Assembly (NCBI GenBank): GCA_016872645.1
Contig: VGZH01000014.1
Coordinates: 1 to 64,000, forward strand
DNA from: Planctomycetota bacterium
GTDB lineage: Bacteria > Planctomycetota > Planctomycetia > Planctomycetales > Planctomycetaceae
Direction of reading: 5' to 3'
Length of the DNA: 64,000 nucleotides
This document shows positions 293-45,965 of the stretch, piece by piece (positions within the stretch are counted from its first letter, which is position 1; the number at the start of each line of letters is the position of its first letter). The position numbers were made by a program, and so were the translations under genes. The notes beneath the pieces are model-generated. The model had not been told where the DNA came from. It was given only the letters and a program-made list of their open reading frames with translations, and did no database searches.

Positions 293-3160
293 TTAATCGG
301 CACTAAACACATTGACTTGGCAGATGTCCTCGAAGTCGCGGAACTGATTCGGCGCGGATGACGTCGGCGGCCAGAACTCCCGGCGTGCGATCCGCAACGC
401 GACTTGTTTGGCCTGCTCATCCGCATCCGCCAAATCGTTCGGCGACCATTCGGCCAATGCGTCACCGACTTCTGTCAAGTCCTTCGGCAGGTTGATGTAG
501 CCCAAGACCGGATCGTCCGACAGCATGAGACTCCGAGCCAAATGCCGATACAACGGCAATTGCAGGTCGATCCAGGCCCCTTTACTCCGATGACTCAGTT
601 CCGGAGAATCCCCTCGCTCTCCCGACTTGTAATCGAAGATCGCGCAGACTCCGGTCGCCTCGTTGCGATCGACCCGATCCAATCGGCCGTGCAACCAGAC
701 GGAGACATCGTCCGCTTGAAAGGAAGCCGGCGAGTCGTGCGGTTGTGGTCGGATCGAGCGTTCGACACATTCGATCTTCCATCCTTGGCGTCGCCACTTC
801 GCCTGCCACGTCGCGAAGACTTCCAGCCGCGACTCCATCTGCTTGAGCTGCACGTTGACCGCCGCTCGGCGTCGCGGTCCGTACCGTTCGTTCGCCACTT
901 TGTCGAGCAATTGCTGCAGACACTTCCGCAAACGGTTCTCGTCATCGGAATCCCGAACGTCCGACTCACCGAACAGTCTCAGCACATCGTGCAGCACGTT
1001 GCCGAACGCTAAGGCGTCCAGCTCAACCGCACGATCAGTGACCGATCCTAGTTCGAGCACATGCCGCAAGAAGTATCGGTACGGGCAGGCGATGTGCGAC
1101 TTGAACTCCGTGACGTTAAGCGTCAGCTCACGCACCGGCTTCAGCAAATCCGACATGCCGAACAAGTCGGCGATCCGATCGGGCCGGGGGACTGTGAGGA
1201 CTGAGGACCGAGGACTGAGGACTTCGTGAGGTGCACAACACTCACCTCTTGTCTCTCCACTCTCGTCTTTTGTCTCTCGACTCTCGGCTTCGTCTCCCAT
1301 CAACCTCAGCACACGCTCCGGCAATTGCTCAGCATCAGTTGCGAACAGCAGGCGGCTGGGGAGCAGCGGGTTGTCATCGGCATCGCGACGACCGACCAAC
1401 CACACGACCTCGCGTCGGGTCTGTTGCAACAAGGTCACGGCGTACGCATCGCGCGCGTATCGCCGAGCGTTGTCGTTCAGCCCTAATCGGCGCCGCAGAC
1501 CGTTCGGGAGGAAAAGATCGGAGTTTAAACTCGTCGGCACGAAGCCCTCGTTGAATGAGGTCACGATCGCCGCCTGCGTGTCATCCAGCGGCAACTCCAA
1601 CCAGCCGAGCAGTTCGACTGCATCGGACGTGGGTTCGGGAGGAACTGGCTCATCGGACATCCGTCGCACGGCACAACGAATCGCATCGGCCGCTGCAACC
1701 GAGGGAGCAACGGACGGCGGCACACTTGCCAACTCGTCGATGACTTTGCTGAGTTCCCTGAGCGCGGCGACCAACACTCGGCCTTCGCGCGACGATTCGT
1801 CGACTTTGCGCGCGCCGTAGATCGACGCCAACCACGCTCTTAACGGTTCGGCCCAGGCGTTCAACGGTCGGGCCGCGATCCGCAACGGCGCGAGCAAATC
1901 GCGGACATTGCAGAGCATTTCGCGGGACAGGCCGTTTCGTCCCGTTCGCCACCGAGCTTGCGTTGTCTTAGGCTGCTCCAGAATTGACAGCAGCACATCC
2001 GGCCCCAACGGGAGGTGATCGCAGAACGTTTCATCGAGAGCTTCCAGATTCACCTGACCGGCGAGGGATGCATCAAGGTCCGGATGCCGTACCAGCGACG
2101 CGAAGCTTTCGTATCGCCCCCGCTCTAAAACTTCCGCGACCGCCAGCAGCAGACGGCAGGGGCCGGAATCCGACACCTTCGTCCCTTCGATCCACCGAGT
2201 CGCCACGCCACACGCCGCAAGCTGCCGCTCGACGAACGGCCCCTGACGCTCGTCCGTCAGACCAACAACGACTTCGTCGGCTCGGAATCGAGCACCCAAC
2301 GCGGACAACTCACGAGCGACCTGCTCCGCCTGTTCAGTCGGTCCTTGGCAGACACGAATCCGCTCCAACGGAATGTCGATCGGCGATCCGCACCACCGCT
2401 CTGGCAACAAGCAGCCGTGCGTGTCGAACCAGTCATCTCGATCCGGCGGTGCGGCGATCAACGCCGTGACGCGAACCGCGACAAGGTTGAGAATCTGCCG
2501 CGTCGCCTGATTCATGTCGACCGTCCCGACCAACACAATATCGCGATCCGTCTGCGGCTCGCGACGCCGGATCGCTTCCAGCCGCGCGGTCTGCATATCC
2601 CATAAATTCAATTCATCGAGCTTTCGCAGGTACGCCGTCTGAAGGGCGTGCAGTCCTTTCCAGCGAAGTGCTTCGACACTCCCCGGTTCATCGCGGCCGA
2701 GTTTGACAACGTCACCGAAATCGCAACCGTCCGCCGCAAGTTCCCGGTATTGTCTCCACAGCAATGTTCCCATCGCCCACCACGCCAGCACATCATCGTC
2801 GGCAGGTGGTCGCGGCACGATCTTCTTCAACTGGTCTGTTTTCGATTCACGAAGTACTTTGGCCCACGTCAGTTGCTGAACAAGATCGCTCGCGAGCGGC
2901 CGCTGCAACGAATACAGATCTTCCGGCAGTTTTCCGATCGTTTCGATGCGTGGCGGAGTCAGTCGTCGGAGTTCCTTCTCCGCTCGAGCGACCAGCAATT
3001 CCAGCAACCGCCGCCCCGCCCGCCGCCCCGGCACGACCACGATTACGCCGCTGAGATCCAGTTCGTCGCATCCCGCGCAATTCTGGGCAAGCCACTCCGC
3101 CGCCGACTCCAGCAGCGGTCGCTCCCAACCCAAAAACTCGCGTGAGATCAACGTCGTCAT
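293..3160 (-). CDS. RecB/AddB-type PD-(D/E)XK nuclease protein
   Basis: This cytoplasmic protein of about 955 residues resembles AddB and inactivated superfamily I helicases with a C-terminal RecB-family nuclease, so a role in double-strand break resection is the likely one. The N-terminus (VIVVVPGRRAGRRLLELL) matches the start of AddB-like helicase folds, and no intact Walker A motif is visible. The nuclease part begins near residue 690 (ACPYRYFLRHVLELG). It continues with HGRLDRVDR near 825 and FDYKSG near 843, which supply the metal-binding Asp and the catalytic Lys. The C-terminal Cys cluster of AddB Fe-S nucleases is not seen, only one late Cys. I chose ATG at 3160; a GTG at 3187 in the same frame is possible, and neither has a strong Shine-Dalgarno. 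No AddA partner is in the window. Two 7-base repeat arrays lie inside the frame (1191-1285). Confidence 0.85.
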   Translation of the reverse strand: MTTLISREFLGWERPLLESAAEWLAQNCAGCDELDLSGVIVVVPGRRAGRRLLELLVARAEKELRRLTPPRIETIGKLPEDLYSLQRPLASDLVQQLTWAKVLRESKTDQLKKIVPRPPADDDVLAWWAMGTLLWRQYRELAADGCDFGDVVKLGRDEPGSVEALRWKGLHALQTAYLRKLDELNLWDMQTARLEAIRRREPQTDRDIVLVGTVDMNQATRQILNLVAVRVTALIAAPPDRDDWFDTHGCLLPERWCGSPIDIPLERIRVCQGPTEQAEQVARELSALGARFRADEVVVGLTDERQGPFVERQLAACGVATRWIEGTKVSDSGPCRLLLAVAEVLERGRYESFASLVRHPDLDASLAGQVNLEALDETFCDHLPLGPDVLLSILEQPKTTQARWRTGRNGLSREMLCNVRDLLAPLRIAARPLNAWAEPLRAWLASIYGARKVDESSREGRVLVAALRELSKVIDELASVPPSVAPSVAAADAIRCAVRRMSDEPVPPEPTSDAVELLGWLELPLDDTQAAIVTSFNEGFVPTSLNSDLFLPNGLRRRLGLNDNARRYARDAYAVTLLQQTRREVVWLVGRRDADDNPLLPSRLLFATDAEQLPERVLRLMGDEAESRETKDESGETRGECCAPHEVLSPRSSVLTVPRPDRIADLFGMSDLLKPVRELTLNVTEFKSHIACPYRYFLRHVLELGSVTDRAVELDALAFGNVLHDVLRLFGESDVRDSDDENRLRKCLQQLLDKVANERYGPRRRAAVNVQLKQMESRLEVFATWQAKWRRQGWKIECVERSIRPQPHDSPASFQADDVSVWLHGRLDRVDRNEATGVCAIFDYKSGERGDSPELSHRSKGAWIDLQLPLYRHLARSLMLSDDPVLGYINLPKDLTEVGDALAEWSPNDLADADEQAKQVALRIARREFWPPTSSAPNQFRDFEDICQVNVFSAD
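1191..1285. repeat. Two 7-base tandem arrays inside a gene
   Basis: Positions 1198-1225 read as GGACTGA, GGACCGA, GGACTGA, GGACTTC. Positions 1251-1285 read as GTCTCTC, CACTCTC, GTCTTTT, GTCTCTC, GACTCTC. Both arrays lie in the nuclease reading frame, between the helicase-like and nuclease parts. They keep the frame open and encode a charged Ser/Arg/Glu-rich linker. Confidence 0.75.
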
Positions 3161-3286
3161 GGAAGAATTGTGAAGCCTTGATGTCACGATTGCCAGCCGT
3201 CCATTTGGGTATCGCTAGACCGCCTCAAGGCGATAGATTCGTGCCTGCGAATGGTCACGGCACAGATTCGAAGACAAGGTCTCCGC

Positions 3287-5785
3287 ATGATTTCCTCAAA
3301 CATCCGTTTCTTCGGCGTCGGACTGACGCTCAGCCTGTTGTGGATGAACGGCCTGTCGGCCGAAACTCCAACGGCCACCGATGTCGCGTTTTTTGAGAAG
3401 GAGGTATTGCCGATTCTCAAGGCGAACTGTTTCGCGTGTCACGGCTCGGAAAAGAAGCTGCAAGGTGGACTGAGGCTGACCAGCCGAGAGGACATTCTCA
3501 AGGGTGGCGAGGGTGGCCCGGCGGTCGATTTGAAGAAGCCCGACGAGAGCCTGATTCTGATGGCGATCAACTACGACGGCCTCATGATGCCGCCGAAAGG
3601 AAAACTGCCGAAGGCTCAGATCGAGATCCTGACGAAGTGGATCACGCGGGGACTCGCATGGTCAGACAAGGCCGCAGCAGCGGCGGTGAAAGCTCACGGG
3701 ATACCGGTCGTCGATGATGAGGCTCGCAACTTCTGGGCGTTCCGACCGGTCGTGCAACCCACAATTCCCGAAATCAAAAATTACAAATCGAGAATCGCAA
3801 ATCCGATCGACAGCTTTGTACTCGCGAAACTCGAAGCGAACGAAGCTCGTCCCGCGCCAATGGCCTCCAAGGAGACCTTGCTGCGGCGACTGTTTTACAC
3901 GCTGACCGGCTTGCCTCCGTCGCCGAAAGAAGTCGAGTCATTTGTGAACGACAACTCGCCGGACGCCTACGAAAAGGTGGTCGATCGCTTGCTCGAATCG
4001 CGGCACTACGGCGAGCACTGGGCACGACACTGGCTCGATCTCGTGCGCTACGCCGAGTCCAACAGCTTTGAGCGAGACAACCCCAAACCGTTCGTCTGGA
4101 GATATCGCGACTACGTCATCCGCTCATTCAATTCCGACAAGCCATATGACCACTTCCTCCGCGAGCAATTGGCTGGTGACGAACTCGACGAGATCACTCC
4201 CGATTCGATCATCGCCACCGGTTACTATCGGCTCGGCTTGTGGGATGACGAACCAGCCGATCGGCCGCTGGCGTTTTACGATGGACTCGACGATATCGTG
4301 GCGACGACATCGCAGACGATGCTCGGCCTGACGGCGAATTGTGCGCGTTGCCACGACCACAAGATCGACCCGTTCACACAGCGCGACTACTACTCGCTAC
4401 TGGCCTTCTTCCACGGCATCAAACCGTACGGCGGCGACAACGAGATCCTGAGATTCATCGGCAATGAGGCCGAACGAAACCGACACGCCGCTGCGACTGC
4501 CGATTGGGAAGGCCAGATGGCGAACGCTCGAAAACAGATCGCCGCCTTCGAAGACGCGATCAAAGACAAACTCCCCGGCGGTGAGATCGATGACTTCAAG
4601 TTCGACGGCAAGCGTCGCCAGATTCTTCGCAAACAGCGAGGCAAACTGATCTCGATGGAGGAGCACGACAACTACGAGCGACTGCATCGCGAGCGAGAGA
4701 GAATCGAGCGTGAGCGCCCCAAGTCACTCGAACAAGCTCTCGCCATCAAGGAAGAAAGCCACCCGCGCGACACGTTTGTGCTACTACGAGGCAATCCGCA
4801 GGCACCAGGGGATCGTGTTGAACCGGCGTTCCCGTCCGTGCTGCTTGCAGCAAATTCGAAGCCGCCGGAGTTGCCGGCTCGGCGCGATGGCTCGGAATCG
4901 TCCGGCCGCCGCCGAGTGCTCGCCGATTGGATCGCTTCGCCGACGAACCCGCTGACGGCCCGCGTGATGGTCAATCGCGTCTGGCAATTTCACTTCGGCC
5001 GCGGCCTTGTCCGCTCGTCGAGCAACTTCGGTTACATGGGCTCGCCGCCAACTCATCCCGAATTGCTTGATTGGCTCGCCGGCGAGTTCATTCGCGGTGG
5101 GTGGAAGCTCAAACCGCTGCATCGGTTGATCGTGATGTCGACTGCGTTTCGGATGAGTTGTCAGGCAGACAGCGCCATCGCCTCCAAAGACCCAGAGAAC
5201 GATTGGATTTCACACTTCGACTTGCGACGTCTCTCGGCCGAGGAGGTTCGCGATTCGATCCTCGCCGTCAGCGGCAACTTGAATCTGAAAAAGTCCGAAG
5301 GCCCAAGCATTTATCCGGTGATCCCAAGAGAGGTGCTCGCCGGTCAATCCGTTCCAGGTCGAGGCTGGGAGAAGTCTTCCGCCGAAGAGGCCGCATCGCG
5401 GAGCGTCTTTGTCCACATCAAGCGGTCATTGGCGGTGCCCTTGCTGACGGTATTCGATGCCGCTGATCCAGACTCCCCCTGCCCTGTCCGTTTCACAACC
5501 ACGCAGCCGTCGCAAGCATTGGCACTGATCAATGGCACATTTGCGAATGAACAAGCCACATTGTTCGCCGCCAGCCTGCGACGCGAAGCGGGAACTGACT
5601 CGACAGCCTGCGTGACATTAGGACTCACTCGAGTCTTGCAACGACAACCGACCGAGCGAGACATCGCTCGTGGAGTGAAGTTTCTGGAGGACAACCTCCA
5701 TCAAGAGAACGTCTCCGCCGATGAGGCGCTGCGACGCTTCTGCCTGCTGGCAATCAACCTGAATGAGTTTGTGTATCTCGATTGA
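3287..5785 (+). CDS. DUF1549/DUF1553 protein with cytochrome-c motifs (PSD1-type)
   Basis: This exported planctomycete protein of 832 residues starts with a hydrophobic signal sequence ending near SAETPTA. A planctomycete-type cytochrome c domain follows, with CFACH at residues 48-52, so one heme should be covalently attached. DUF1549 comes next and carries a second CxxCH motif (CARCHDHKIDPF, near residue 351). DUF1553 fills the C-terminal third (LADWIASPTNPLTARVMVNR). A charged helical segment near residues 405-500 separates the two DUF domains. I chose ATG at 3287 because AAGG sits seven bases upstream and the signal peptide begins there; an ATG at 3251 would put a basic tail before it. The DUF1501 gene 81 bases downstream is the usual partner. 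The biochemical role of this pair is not established; genome context elsewhere suggests polysaccharide or redox work in the periplasm. Confidence 0.9.
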   Translation: MISSNIRFFGVGLTLSLLWMNGLSAETPTATDVAFFEKEVLPILKANCFACHGSEKKLQGGLRLTSREDILKGGEGGPAVDLKKPDESLILMAINYDGLMMPPKGKLPKAQIEILTKWITRGLAWSDKAAAAAVKAHGIPVVDDEARNFWAFRPVVQPTIPEIKNYKSRIANPIDSFVLAKLEANEARPAPMASKETLLRRLFYTLTGLPPSPKEVESFVNDNSPDAYEKVVDRLLESRHYGEHWARHWLDLVRYAESNSFERDNPKPFVWRYRDYVIRSFNSDKPYDHFLREQLAGDELDEITPDSIIATGYYRLGLWDDEPADRPLAFYDGLDDIVATTSQTMLGLTANCARCHDHKIDPFTQRDYYSLLAFFHGIKPYGGDNEILRFIGNEAERNRHAAATADWEGQMANARKQIAAFEDAIKDKLPGGEIDDFKFDGKRRQILRKQRGKLISMEEHDNYERLHRERERIERERPKSLEQALAIKEESHPRDTFVLLRGNPQAPGDRVEPAFPSVLLAANSKPPELPARRDGSESSGRRRVLADWIASPTNPLTARVMVNRVWQFHFGRGLVRSSSNFGYMGSPPTHPELLDWLAGEFIRGGWKLKPLHRLIVMSTAFRMSCQADSAIASKDPENDWISHFDLRRLSAEEVRDSILAVSGNLNLKKSEGPSIYPVIPREVLAGQSVPGRGWEKSSAEEAASRSVFVHIKRSLAVPLLTVFDAADPDSPCPVRFTTTQPSQALALINGTFANEQATLFAASLRREAGTDSTACVTLGLTRVLQRQPTERDIARGVKFLEDNLHQENVSADEALRRFCLLAINLNEFVYLD

Positions 5786-5789
5786 GTTT

Positions 5790-5850
5790 TCTCTGTGCCC
5801 TTTGTGCTCTCTGTGTAAGAATTGGAAACACACAGACACAGAGGAACACG
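5790..5850. repeat. Inverted repeat with 9-base period
   Basis: The left arm is three 9-base units (TCTCTGTGC, CCTTTGTGC, TCTCTGTGT). The right arm at 5828-5850 is an imperfect reverse complement rich in ACACAGA and CAGAGGA. It fills most of the gap between the DUF1553 and DUF1501 genes and would fold as a hairpin in their shared transcript. A similar element is at 35652-35715. Confidence 0.7.
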
Positions 5851-5866
5851 GACTTGGAGAAAAACA

Positions 5867-29519: not shown

Positions 29520-31856
29520 ATGAACGCCCAAAGTTCGTCGCCTGTTGCCTGGCCGAGAGCCGACCGCCGATGGCCGACGGCCGTCGTACCGTTTTTGCTT
29601 GGCCTCTTTCTCAGCACGCCTGTTCTCGCCGCCGATCTGGCACTTGTCAAAGCCTTGCAATTGCTCGACGCACGCGTCGTCCCACCGGCGGAGCGCGAAT
29701 CATTCGCCAATCAAGTCCGCGATCAGCAGCGGCGAGCCATCCGTGACGCTAACGAACGCAGCAGTGCCGCGTGGCAGCAAATAAAAACGCTTGACGACTG
29801 GGAGCGATTCCGAACTCAGGAACTCGCGGCACTCAAAAGGTCACTCGGCGCTTGGCCTGACCAACCATCAGAGATCCGCACGCGAGTCGCCTCGACCTTT
29901 AACGGTGACGGCTTTGCCATCGAAAACCTCCTCTTCGAAACACGCCCGGGCTGGTGGGTCACCGCCAACTTGTATCGCCCCGCAAAACAGCGCGAGTCGA
30001 TGCCTGGAATTCTGATTTGCCACGCGCATCACACGCCGAAAGAGCACGGCGAGCTCCAAGATATGGGAATGACCTGGGCTCGAGCCGGTTGCATCGTGCT
30101 GGTCATGGATCAAGTCGGGCACGGCGAGCGGCGGCAGCATCCGTTCGCAATGGCCTCCGATTTCGACAAACCGTATCGAGTTGGCCATGCGGACTACTCC
30201 TTCCGCTACGACAGCGAAATTCAATTGAGTCTCGTCGGCGAAAGCCTCGTCGGCTGGATGTCGTGGGACATGGTGCGCGGCGTCGACCTGTTGTTGGCTC
30301 GGCCAGGTATTGATCCGAAAAGGCTGATCCTGCTGGGAGCCGTCGCCGGAGGAGGCGATCCCGTGGCCGTGACTGGCGCGCTCGATCAGCGATTTGCCGC
30401 AGTCGTCCCGTTTAACTTCGGCGGTCCGCAACCGGAAACAAGATATCCGTTGCCAGACGACGCCGAGACGTGGTTCAACTATGCCGGCAGTGGCAGTTGG
30501 GAATCGACCCGCAACCTGCGTGATTCAGCCGCATACGGCTTTCTGCCGTGGGTCATCGTCGGCGGCATCGCACCGCGACGGCTGGTCTACGCGCATGAAT
30601 TCAATTGGGATGAACCTCGCGATCCCGTTTGGAAACGGTTGCAAATAATCTTCGGCTTCTACTCTCGCCAAGATTTCATCACCTTCACGCATGGCCGAGG
30701 AGCGGTCACCGGCTCATCGCCGCAAGACACGCACTGCACGCACATCGGCAAGACGCATCGTGCCCGCATTCACGAGGCGTTCCGTTCGTGGTTCGGCATC
30801 GAAGCAACGCCAGAAACGGAATTCAGCGCACGCCTACCGGCTGACCGCTTGCGCTGCTGGACTCCAGAACTCAAAGTCGAGTTGAAGCCGAAATCGCTCT
30901 CGACAATGACGACAGAACTTGCGGATCAGTTCGCCGCACTTCGCCTTCGTGAACGGGAGACTAATCCGGCGACCGGCGTGCAATGGCGCAAACTACAACA
31001 GCGATGGGCCGAACTGTTGCGAATCAAATCAGACGATCCGTTGGCCATTGTTCAGGTAGTACCGTTCGATTCGCCGGCGGGAGTTCGCGCGGAAGCCGTC
31101 GTACTCACAAGTTCGTCCGGCAATCGCACACCAGTCCTCTTGATCAAACCGACTGCGTTGAAAGCGGGGCAAGCCGTGGTCGTCGCGATCTGCTCGCAAG
31201 GAAAGTCGCGGCTCTTGAAGGAATGTGCACACGACATCGCGGAACTGCTGGAAGGCGGCACTGCTGTCTGCCTCGTCGATCCGCGCGGGATCGGCGAATC
31301 GAAGCTTGGCGACAGTCACGGCCGCCGCAGTTCAGCGACTTCGATGTCATCCACCGCACTGATGCTCGGCACTCCGTTCCCAGGCCAGCAACTGCGCGAC
31401 GTGCGACTAGTACTTTCCTGGCTGCGCCAGCAACCCGACCTGAAAGGCCGCCAATTCGCACTGTGGGGCGAATCGCTCGCGCCCCCCAATCCCGCCACTT
31501 CGCTGTTCCGTCAACCGCGTGATGACGACGGAGCATTGCCCGCACCCTCCGAACCGCAGGCTCCGTTGCTCGCGCTGTTGGCCGGACTGTTTGAGGAGGA
31601 CGTTACCGCAATCTACACCGTTGGCAACCTGACGAGCTGGCGTTCATTGCTTGCGGACTACTTGGTACTCACCGCGTCCGACGGCCTGGTTCCTGGAGCA
31701 CTCACGTCTGGTGACATCACCGACTTGATGGAGCCGTTTTGTTCTGGCCGGCGCGTTCGCGTTGAAGCTGCTGTTGATGGCTGGAATCGTTGGGTTCCAA
31801 ATACTCCAAAACGCGATGGTCCGAAGAAGTGGTTTGACGCAGTTTCCATACCGTAG
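29520..31856 (+). CDS. Two-lobed acetyl-xylan esterase/dienelactone hydrolase-like protein
   Basis: The protein has about 778 residues. A signal peptide (TAVVPFLLGLFLSTPVLA) precedes two alpha/beta-hydrolase lobes. Lobe 1 (about 60-460) has the acetyl-xylan esterase landmarks ILICHAHHTPKEHGE and VMDQVGHGERR. Its nucleophile elbow reads ILLGAVAGGGDP, where GxSGG is expected, so the Ser is missing. Lobe 2 (about 500-770) has VDPRGIGESK and FALWGESLAPP, with Ser in a G-x-S-x-A elbow. Active site, if any, would be in lobe 2. The start is uncertain: ATG at 29520 gives a leader ahead of the hydrophobic core, with part of it (residues 12-23) encoded by a 7-base repeat array. ATGs at 29409 and 29487 are alternatives. 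The stop codon TAG lies at the edge of another repeat (31853-31918). Confidence 0.75.
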   Translation: MNAQSSSPVAWPRADRRWPTAVVPFLLGLFLSTPVLAADLALVKALQLLDARVVPPAERESFANQVRDQQRRAIRDANERSSAAWQQIKTLDDWERFRTQELAALKRSLGAWPDQPSEIRTRVASTFNGDGFAIENLLFETRPGWWVTANLYRPAKQRESMPGILICHAHHTPKEHGELQDMGMTWARAGCIVLVMDQVGHGERRQHPFAMASDFDKPYRVGHADYSFRYDSEIQLSLVGESLVGWMSWDMVRGVDLLLARPGIDPKRLILLGAVAGGGDPVAVTGALDQRFAAVVPFNFGGPQPETRYPLPDDAETWFNYAGSGSWESTRNLRDSAAYGFLPWVIVGGIAPRRLVYAHEFNWDEPRDPVWKRLQIIFGFYSRQDFITFTHGRGAVTGSSPQDTHCTHIGKTHRARIHEAFRSWFGIEATPETEFSARLPADRLRCWTPELKVELKPKSLSTMTTELADQFAALRLRERETNPATGVQWRKLQQRWAELLRIKSDDPLAIVQVVPFDSPAGVRAEAVVLTSSSGNRTPVLLIKPTALKAGQAVVVAICSQGKSRLLKECAHDIAELLEGGTAVCLVDPRGIGESKLGDSHGRRSSATSMSSTALMLGTPFPGQQLRDVRLVLSWLRQQPDLKGRQFALWGESLAPPNPATSLFRQPRDDDGALPAPSEPQAPLLALLAGLFEEDVTAIYTVGNLTSWRSLLADYLVLTASDGLVPGALTSGDITDLMEPFCSGRRVRVEAAVDGWNRWVPNTPKRDGPKKWFDAVSIP
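29553..29587. repeat. 7-base tandem array (CCGATGG type) in a coding start
   Basis: Five units: CCGAGAG, CCGACCG, CCGATGG, CCGACGG, CCGTCGT. It overlaps codons for the N-terminal segment of the esterase. The same unit family occurs at 56472-56554, with identical first and fourth units. Confidence 0.7.
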
Positions 31857-31918
31857 CCACGTCTGCCAGAACGTGGGCAATCCACCGCAGACGCAGCCCC
31901 ACGTTCTGACGAACGTGG
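31853..31918. repeat. Inverted repeat, CCACGTTC hairpin pair
   Basis: Left copy at 31857-31876 (CCACGTCTGCCAGAACGTGG) and right copy at 31899-31918 (CCACGTTCTGACGAACGTGG) are each self-complementary hairpins and also reverse complements of each other, with a few mismatches. The element starts GTAG, so the TAG stop of the esterase is inside it. A related pair is at 44021-44078. Confidence 0.7.
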
Positions 31919-31934
31919 AAACGAAAGACCTCAC

Positions 31935-35636: not shown

Positions 35637-35651
35637 TTTTCACCTTCAAAA

Positions 35652-35715
35652 CTTCGTGCCTTTGTGCCTTTGTGGTCCAAATTGTTTTCACCACAAAGGC
35701 ACGAAGGCACAAAGG
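35652..35715. repeat. 24-base inverted repeat with 8-base period
   Basis: Left arm 35652-35675 (units TTCGTGCC, TTTGTGCC, TTTGTGG) and right arm 35691-35715 are reverse complements with few mismatches, around a 15-base AT-rich loop. It lies between the E3 gene start and the small membrane-protein gene stop. It resembles the 5790-5850 element (TTTGTGC units). Confidence 0.8.
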
Positions 35716-35771
35716 AGAACGATTCGGATTTGGATTCACTCAAATCCAGAAAATATAAGTTTTTGAATCTT

Positions 35772-37538: not shown

Positions 37539-37660
37539 GGAGTTGGGCGATGCATCGCCGCTTTCCATGGCGGCGGAGCCGCTTTGGTTTGATTGCAAAT
37601 CAGCCGGACGTGAAAAGCGGCTCCGCCGCAATCCAAAGCGGTGATGCATCACCGCACTCC
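37539..37660. repeat. 122-base palindromic element (GGAGTGCGGTG family)
   Basis: Left arm 37539-37585 and right arm 37614-37660 are 47-base reverse complements with roughly seven mismatches, around a 28-base loop. Both contain the 8-base palindrome GATGCATC and GGCGGAGCCGCTTT. It fills the gap between aceE and aceF. The outer end (GGAGTGCGGTG) also starts the element at 40727. Confidence 0.85.
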
Positions 37661-40714: not shown

Positions 40715-40726
40715 TTTTTTGTTTTT
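40692..40726 (+). terminator. Intrinsic terminator in cimA leader
   Basis: A perfect 8-base-pair stem, CCCTCAGG with CCTGAGGG, around a 7-base loop, is followed by TTTTTTGTTTTT. It lies between the leader peptide and cimA, not after a gene, as expected for an attenuator. It is the clearest intrinsic terminator I found in the window. Confidence 0.9.
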
Positions 40727-40860
40727 GGAGTGCGGTGTGTCAGCACCGTTTTGAATTTTTGGATTTTGATTTTCGATTTTGGATCGCAGCCTTCGTCACA
40801 ATCGAAAATCAAAATTCCACAATCAAAAATCCTCCAAAGCGGTGCTGACACACCGCACCT
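40727..40860. repeat. 134-base inverted repeat with 7-base periodic arms
   Basis: Outer arms (40730-40748 and 40840-40858) are 19-base perfect reverse complements that begin GTGCGGTGTGTCAGC. Inner arms pair GATTTTGATTTTCGATT with its near-complement at 40800-40818. The inner left arm is 7-periodic (GGATTTT, GATTTTC, GATTTTG). The outer sequence is kin to the element at 37539-37660. It sits in the cimA leader between the terminator and the ribosome-binding site. Confidence 0.85.
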
Positions 40861-40875
40861 CAAAGGTGACCGGTG

Positions 40876-43981: not shown

Positions 43982-44020
43982 CGAGGAGTTACCTTTTTGA
44001 TTTCAGATTTGACACAGTCG

Positions 44021-44078
44021 CCACGCTCGCCAGAGCGTGGATTTGTAGTTGACTCGACCCACGCTCTGGCGAGAGTGG
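44021..44078. repeat. Inverted repeat, CCACGCTC hairpin pair
   Basis: CCACGCTCGCCAGAGCGTGG at 44021-44040 is a perfect hairpin. CCACGCTCTGGCGAGAGTGG at 44059-44078 is its reverse complement with one mismatch and is itself nearly a hairpin. It lies between the korA and korB genes. It is kin to 31853-31918 (CCACGTTC type). Confidence 0.8.
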
Positions 44079-44087
44079 CTACGTTCT

Positions 44088-45965
44088 CTAACCGTGGAAT
44101 TCGTTGATGACATTGATAAGTTCGTTCACCAAGAACGGCTTGCCTTCAATCTTGTTGTAGCCTTGAGCGTCGACGAGGTATTGATTGCGGAGCAACAATC
44201 GCAACTGACCACAGTTCAATTCCGGCACGAGCACCTTTTCATAGCTCTTCAGAATCGTGCCGAGATTGCGCGGGAGTGGGTTCATGTATTTCACATGTGC
44301 ATGAGCAACCGACTTCCCGGCAGCCTGAGCTTTCTGAACCGCCGTGCGGACGGCTCCGAAAGTTCCGCCCCAACTGACCACGAGCACCTTTCCAGACGCC
44401 GGACCATCCACCTTCTGCTCGGGAATGAAGCTGGCGATGTTCGCGATCTTTGCAGCTCGCGTGTTGGTCATGTGCTGATGGTTCTTCGGCGAGTAATCGA
44501 TGTTGCCGGTGACATCCTTCTTTTCGAGTCCGCCGATGCGGTGTTCCAAACCTTTTGTGCCCGGCTTGGCCCACGGGCGAGCGAGCTTTTCATTTCGCTT
44601 GTACGGCAAATACTCGCCATTCTGACCGTTCGCAGCTGTGATGTGCTCAACATTTAAACGGGGCAACTCTTCGACCTTCGGGATTCTCCATGGTTCGGCC
44701 CCGTTGGCGATGTAGCCGTCGGAAAGGAAGATCACCGGGCACATGAACTCGGTAGCGATACGAAACGCTTCTTGAATCGTCGAGAAGCAATCGCCGGGAC
44801 CACTCGCGGCGATGATCGGCAGCGGTGACTCGCCGTTGCGGCCGTACATGGCAAGCAATAAGTCGGATTGCTCGGTCTTGGTCGGCAGGCCAGTGCTCGG
44901 ACCGCCGCGTTGGACATCGATGATGACCATTGGCAACTCGGTCATCATGCCCAGGCCCATCGCCTCACCCTTCAGACAGATGCCGGGACCGCTGCTGGCC
45001 GTGACCGCCAGTTCTCCCGCGAATGCGGAGCCCACACATGCCGCCATCGCAGCGATCTCATCTTCGGCCTGAAACGTCTTGACTCCGAAATGCTTGAACG
45101 CCGACAGGTCATGCAAAATGTCGCTGGCCGGAGTGATCGGGTACCCGCTGAAGACGACTGTCTTCCCAGAAAGCTTGGCCATCACCGCCAAGCCCATCGC
45201 GACGGCTTCGTTGCCAGTGATCTTGCGATACTTGCCGGCCGGCAACTTGGCAGGTGGGACGTGGTAGTGAACCGTGAACGACTCGGTCGAAAAACCGTAA
45301 TTCATGCCGGCCCGAAGCGAACGCAAGTTGGCTTCGACGACGTCCGGCTTCTTGGCAAACTTCGCTCGAATGAAGTCCTCAGTGGGTTTCGGATCGCGGT
45401 CGTACAGCCAATAGACCAGGCCCAGAGCGAAGAAGTTGCGGCACATGTCCGCACCCTTCAATGAGAGTCCTAATCCCTCGACCGCGTCACGGTTGAGCCG
45501 CGTCATCGGCACCTTGTGAACGCGGAACTTGGCCATCAAAGTTTCGTTATCGAGCGGATTCGCGTCGTACAACGCTTTTTGCAAGCCGCTTTTGTTGAAC
45601 TCTTCCTCATTAACGATCAGCGTGCCGCCACGCTTGAGATCTTCGATGTTCGTCTTCAGCGCCGCCGGATTCATCGCGACCAGCGTGTCGACGGCATCAC
45701 CCGGCGTGAAAATGTCGTGATTCGAGAAGCACAACTGATAGCCGGAAACCCCGAACAACGAACCAGCGGGAGCACGAATCTCGGCAGGAAAATCGGGGAA
45801 CGTTCGCACGTCGTTGCCAAAGATGGCCGAGGCGTTCGTCATCTGTGTTCCGACCGACTGCATTCCGTCGCCGGAGTCGCCGCAAAAACGAATGACGACT
45901 GTTTCGAGGTTTTCCAGTTTCTTGCCGTTGGTGGAAGCGGGAGCATCCAGTGTGGCGGTGGACAT
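44088..45965 (-). CDS. korA: 2-oxoacid:ferredoxin oxidoreductase, gamma-alpha fused subunit
   Basis: The 625-residue chain joins the gamma domain ([20 protein letters not shown]) to the alpha domain ([37 protein letters not shown]). This is the two-subunit arrangement of many aerobic and microaerobic bacteria. ATG at 45965 follows AGGAG nine to ten bases upstream and starts the conserved gamma fold; upstream codons to 46088 lack that. The beta subunit gene follows after 106 bases that hold the CCACGCTC repeat. Its presence beside a complete pyruvate dehydrogenase suggests it mainly serves 2-oxoglutarate or reductive flux. Confidence 0.85.

Follow-up and report, generated by a model that had tools for sequence, protein, structure and literature searches.

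The AddB-like gene and its linker

The window, by which we mean the whole 64 kb stretch of DNA analysed, belongs to a planctomycete genome of 5.76 Mb in 213 contigs (G000) and carries on its minus strand, at 293–3187, a gene for an AddB-like protein, a RecB-family nuclease subunit (TIGR02786, 93 bits, under the cut-off). The frame is open across its whole length and counts 973 codons from stop to stop; the true start probably lies near 3160, since the earliest invariant residue is Met10. A PD-(D/E)XK nuclease domain (PF12705, PDDEXK_1) occupies residues 690–945 (353–1120, minus strand; E 2.7e-25). The linker studied here, residues 627–666 (1190–1309, minus strand), is poorly conserved, and every column from residue 626 to residue 667 varies in an alignment of nine sequences. 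A search of the PDB with the protein sequence found no match. An AlphaFold model built from the nine sequences has low confidence scores (mean pLDDT 48, pTM 0.32); it leaves residues 632–668 without secondary structure, and no conclusion rests on it.

Two heptamer arrays fall in this linker. They are the sole calls made by Tandem Repeats Finder at the default score in the 64 kb window, and they encode about residues 633–665, in frame and adjoining the nuclease domain. The left array (1195–1223) has period 7 with 4.1 copies at 90% match and consists of (GAGGACT)4, one unit being GAGGACC. The right array (1249–1290) is a 21-mer (3 × 7) in two copies at 90% match, also called with period 7 at 1253–1286; its CTC-type heptamers (CTCTCGA-type units on the plus strand) read GAGAGTC, GAGAGAC and GAGAGTG as reverse complement. 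Between them lies a spacer (1224–1248) containing a short GAGGTG/CACCTC inversion. A preliminary description, made from the letters of the window, had reported two 7-base arrays in an open frame, in a stretch encoding a linker; each of these points stands, with coordinates moved by a few bases.

One element with two arms

The same description took the arrays for two different repeats. They are best read instead as the arms of a single inverted element of ~96 bp with the structure (GAG-N4)n, spacer, (N4-CTC)n. On the plus strand a GAG-N4 array is followed by a 25-base spacer and an N4-CTC array. This order is shared by the family. A scan of 464 kb of the own genome found 16 arrays of period 6–9, ten of them with period 7, and none in one shuffled copy that kept the trinucleotide statistics. 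In the same 464 kb, period-7 pairs were oriented GAG..CTC in 10 cases and CTC..GAG in 0 (overlapping counts), with a single GAG..CTC pair at period 6 and none at period 8. Across 84 fetched stretches, pairs of triple arrays were GAG-first 28 times and never CTC-first. Within an element the units of the two arms are alike (2.76, vs 2.09 ± 0.09 when permuted), and the 46 two-armed elements catalogued below usually fold as hairpins, with a median z of -5.25 against shuffles from our own swap procedure, 34 of them with z < -2.

The window copy itself folds weakly (z -0.31, and -1.57 in the family-wide run); it makes a poor hairpin because its two arms use different units. Folding no better than shuffles is what chance low-complexity sequence would do, but an origin by chance is extremely improbable, given that the window has just two default-score arrays and these lie about 25 bases apart, that shuffled sequence yielded none, and that the orientation bias is 28 to 0.

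Spacers are not conserved across the family and are hardly related beyond orthologues; a candidate core motif showed no clear excess over its reversed control (28 among the matches listed); and the left-arm 20-mer, allowing at most three mismatches, matches G000 at its own place only, so this search turned up no close copy of the element in that genome. A mobile element of fixed sequence was rejected on the spacer and core-motif tests.

The AddB linker in sister species

Related AddB loci come from metagenome-assembled genomes labelled Planctomycetota, Planctomycetia, Planctomycetaceae or Planctomyces, with two labelled Kuenenia; by our reading of the isolate names, these are lake (freshwater) bacteria. 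Among 29 non-self loci, the linker was examined in nine orthologues of the same genus, and the heptamers are absent from all nine. The preliminary description had named, as the finding that would refute it, a linker and periodicity conserved at the protein level in distant relatives; a protein-level conserved repeat is rejected, since none of these nine same-genus orthologues shows the periodicity. Identity to seven of these proteins (L002–L008) is 83–92% before the linker, 24–39% within it and 67–81% after it.

Most of the nine orthologues carry a different inverted repeat in the linker, reading REGEAPAEP...ARREPRPPG. This is the GGCGAGGCTCCCGCCGAGCC palindrome, found inside the AddB genes of G011, G005 and G007, and it is itself dispersed, with 6 to 166 arm matches per genome vs 0–6 for the reversed pattern. 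The 30 rows examined correspond to 25 distinct places once five duplicates are taken out, and 14 distinct places are in genes; the window holds no copy. The linker measures 46 residues here, 44–49 in L002–L008, and 70 and 86 in L010 and L024; because it is no longer here than in sister species, the window copy has no clean empty site. The AddB linker is thus an exchangeable slot, filled by one dispersed palindrome in sister species and by another in this one, with little change in length.

Dispersal through the genus and the phylum

The preliminary description had supposed that the units are dispersed, and they do occur at many places in the own genome and in the genomes of the genus. The element belongs to a dispersed family in an uncultured planctomycete genus. 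Four consecutive GAG-N4 units (GAG-N4 x4) are present in 12/12 genus genomes at 1 to 142 overlapping matches each (G008 1, G001 10, G011 33, G000 38, G006 142), and the units GAGTGGG, GAGGGGC, GAGTGCG and GAGAGTC return at unrelated loci in several species. In the phylum, 213 of 294 genomes have at least one match at period 7. The period-8 control gives matches too, in 197 of the 294, and the two differ only in high counts, with at least 50 matches in 25 genomes at period 7 and in four at period 8 by our reading of the table. These counts make the family widespread but patchy.

Some planctomycete genomes, G089, G069 and G304 among them, hold 500–800 overlapping matches, and many have none.

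Dispersed palindromes invite comparison with REP/REPIN-type hairpins, which are moved by a Y1 (RAYT) transposase. The GGCGAGGCTCCCGCCGAGCC palindrome of the sister-species AddB genes resembles a REP doublet in its strictly conserved inverted arms and variable spacer, and Y1_Tnp genes occur in 11 of the 12 genus genomes. Movement of the heptamer family by this route is nonetheless unlikely. G011 gave no Y1_Tnp match, yet has 33 heptamer and 26 palindrome matches, an absence that is no proof since this draft is 91% complete. Rank correlation with the number of Y1 genes is weak (0.36, p 0.25, and 0.40, p 0.20); Y1 number does not track copy number, and RAYT dependence is not supported. The window element also lacks the GTAG tag that marks the base of a 20–40 bp REP palindrome, neither GTAG nor CTAC being seen by eye in 1190–1290, although the tag alone does not exclude the CGTC class of REPs, because CGTC occurs in this interval.

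Position inside genes and host genes

The catalogue comprises 87 arrays or elements, 46 two-armed and 41 single, taken from the window and the 84 fetched stretches, which cover all GAG-N4 x4 matches in the own genome and, among the matches listed, those in G007, G011 and part of G005. L166, a locus with three GAG units only, was fetched too and yielded no catalogue row. An entry was counted as in-gene when its open frame was 250 codons or longer and extended for 40 codons or more on either side of it.

The arrays had been described as repeats that normally lie between genes, and a search of the genome for intergenic units had been proposed; the catalogue shows the opposite. Long open frames hold 76 of the 87 entries, with 44 of the 46 two-armed elements and 32 of the 41 single arrays, against a null of 0.71 (75 bp) and 0.73 (25 bp) from random segments of G000 only. 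By genome, the in-gene share is 22/25 in the own genome, 27/34 in G007, 15/15 in G011 and 12/13 in G005. Measured against the random-segment null (0.71), two-armed elements thus show an in-gene excess (p 3e-5), which remains when five same-site orthologues are removed (39/41, p 1.4e-4). Single-armed arrays show no in-gene enrichment (p 0.60). One array of G000 (L145) may be N-terminal or intergenic, because it lies directly ahead of an ATG.

Pfam scans of the host frames identified UvrA (L153, L249), UvrD (L158), DnaE (L161, L213), an HrpA/B-type helicase (L147), Lhr (L219, with two elements, and L220) and SMC (L208, L232), in which the element is inside the match to the hinge domain. Other hosts are a hydantoinase, proline dehydrogenase, an M3 peptidase and many DUF1549/DUF1553 proteins; MoeA (L166) is a host outside the catalogue. 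The genes uvrA, dnaE, smc and lhr recur.

The in-gene enrichment of two-armed elements and these recurring hosts would suit an element that is selected for its coding function, through its repeat peptide or an mRNA hairpin, which might serve as a flexible tether or slow translation between domains. We consider this quite improbable: orthologues lack the heptamers or carry unrelated palindromes instead, and the low-complexity peptides that the arms encode differ from host to host.

Added residues in other host proteins

The element in UvrA occupies a loop that is 32 residues long here and two in the solved UvrA; elsewhere in the genus the loop holds unrelated repeat-like peptides, and in outgroups it is short. 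A second UvrA linker has an insert in L167–L173 and none in L174 or L189–L192. MoeA has 19 extra residues, and the DUF1553 protein L234 has 31 residues that are missing from an orthologue (L165) 77% identical to it. The alignment of DnaE with a solved structure revealed no clear net insertion.

Other repeat types were seen in the same proteins. UvrA is encoded in double-length open frames of about 2300–2450 codons, with several repeat-like linkers, in most of the genus (L153; L168–L174). In G000, dnaE (L161), the hrpB-like gene (L147) and uvrA (L153) have further in-frame, insert-like stretches, which read RRRGDKE..SPSPCLPLSPC, QWPVVRGPL..GQRATDNG and DTVTRRQGDKAKK..SPPHLVTPSHP.

Proposed tolerance and origin of the element

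The reading we favour, and hold to be probable, is that a coding-compatible palindromic repeat of a dispersed, mostly in-gene family is tolerated in the AddB-like linker, most likely as a neutral or selfish passenger. The element would persist because it is harmless. Because seven is not divisible by three, each frame of a heptamer array reads as one and the same cyclic heptapeptide, and when one frame has no stop, none has; the reading frame can also be restored when units are gained or lost. The repeat peptide is polar and low in complexity, and loops and linkers could accept it for that reason.

A trace of selection on the coding strand is consistent with a tolerated passenger. Units of the form GAG-N3-T create TGA on the strand that reads GAG, and they make up a smaller share of the 5′ arm on the coding strand (11/141) than of the 3′ arm, where they stand as reverse complement (29/143; p 0.003). 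The window copy has the TGA-making GAGGACT in its 3′ coding arm, and its 5′ arm is built of GAGAGTC-type units; selection against TGA-making units may be why the two arms differ and hardly pair.

How the element was placed or grew is a separate matter. Possible routes of spread are copying or growth of hairpins, slippage with template switching, and addition at break ends; copying or growth through a hairpin intermediate would be the most likely candidate for this step. Five orthologous pairs of elements bear on it: the elements are 59–88% identical and their flanks 73–92%, the elements being at or below flank identity to within about one percent, and each pair has 1–2 compensatory pair changes, too few to decide.

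These pairs would also fit growth in place, by which polymerase slippage multiplies a heptamer in an unconstrained linker and template switching across a hairpin makes the second arm, with no mobile element involved. This is a serious though lesser possibility. The loci have no common spacers, the core motif is not clearly above its reversed control, units differ between loci yet match within one locus, and one report (PMC4679880) cites a proposal that 7 nt is a slippage-prone length. Against growth in place, the same few units recur at unrelated loci in several species, with GAG common to all, although the sharing of GAG is partly ascertainment because the scan required it; whole blocks of 19–31 residues are, moreover, missing from homologues.

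A break-repair scar, formed without any transposon, is rather doubtful as an origin. GAG-N4 heptamers would have been added to both 3′ ends of a break, from a template or by slippage, before the ends were joined. Such an event would predict the GAG-left/CTC-right order, an unconserved spacer at the junction, arms that are matched yet not identical, host sequence that is replaced rather than plainly inserted, and linkers re-used by different repeat types.

Relation to known repeats

Rickettsia palindromic elements (RPE), of about 105–146 bp, and the Wolbachia WPE are in-frame palindromes in conserved protein genes whose products tolerate them (PMC2229807). The heptamer family likewise lies in frame in protein-coding genes; it differs in its heptamer-array arms, its unconserved spacer, the lack of a full-length consensus and its host, a large-genome planctomycete. 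Intragenic GTAG/CGTC REPs form in-gene hairpins in uvrA, uvrD, dnaE2, recBCD and RNA helicases, the same kinds of host gene as here, and lie at nearly the same position of recB in two Xanthomonas species, most REPs being intergenic (PMC3733652). The planctomycete elements, in contrast, have heptamer-array arms and lie mostly in genes, and the window copy lacks the GTAG tag. In the absence of this tag and of an RPE consensus, the family is assigned to neither REP nor RPE; by analogy, it would work like RPE and intragenic REPs while being built of heptamers.

Dispersed tandem heptamers in convergent inverted pairs, as found here (28 vs 0), are also a feature of the GGGAATC repeats of Xanthomonas and Nostoc, often paired in this way (70 and 75 cases); those are 89–93% intergenic in Xanthomonas and 68% in Nostoc (PMC4692102), whereas the planctomycete family is mostly in genes and its N4 varies. 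The coding palindromes of Nematomorpha mitochondria are similarly inverted repeats in translated genes, but they are long and perfect and their arms encode conserved protein parts (PMC6649704), while the heptamer arms encode a variable linker. The TAACTGA heptamers of Beggiatoaceae are likewise dispersed heptamer direct repeats, but they are mostly intergenic, upstream of starts, stop-bearing and made of one direct-repeat unit (PMC4679880). A literature search, with most subscription papers out of its reach, listed none that deals with heptamer elements inside planctomycete genes.

The family points to a bacterial group outside Rickettsia in which short palindromic repeats commonly sit in frame in conserved genes, and the AddB and UvrA linkers to slots that have held several repeat types within a single genus. 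With it one can test by what route DNA of this kind gets into genes and leaves them working, and whether new protein linkers arise from it. The hosts uvrA, dnaE, uvrD and recB/addB-like genes are classes already noted for REPs, which invites a search for a common cause.

Other repeats in the window

Further inverted repeats were noted in the window. An intergenic hairpin at 35639–35719 is built on CTTTGTG/CACAAAG octamers, and an akin CTCTGTG-type pair lies at ~5786–5852, just past a gene ending at 5785. At 40724–40864, outside long open frames, the outer arms of a nested inverted repeat flank a TTTTGGA/ATTTTCG-type repeat. An inverted repeat with 47-nt arms, 85% complementary, is found at 37539–37660, also outside long frames. 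Two hairpins at 44008–44091 and 31852–31923, on CCACGCTC/GAGCGTGG and CCACGTTCTG, are near the ends of long frames and possibly represent another dispersed palindrome family.
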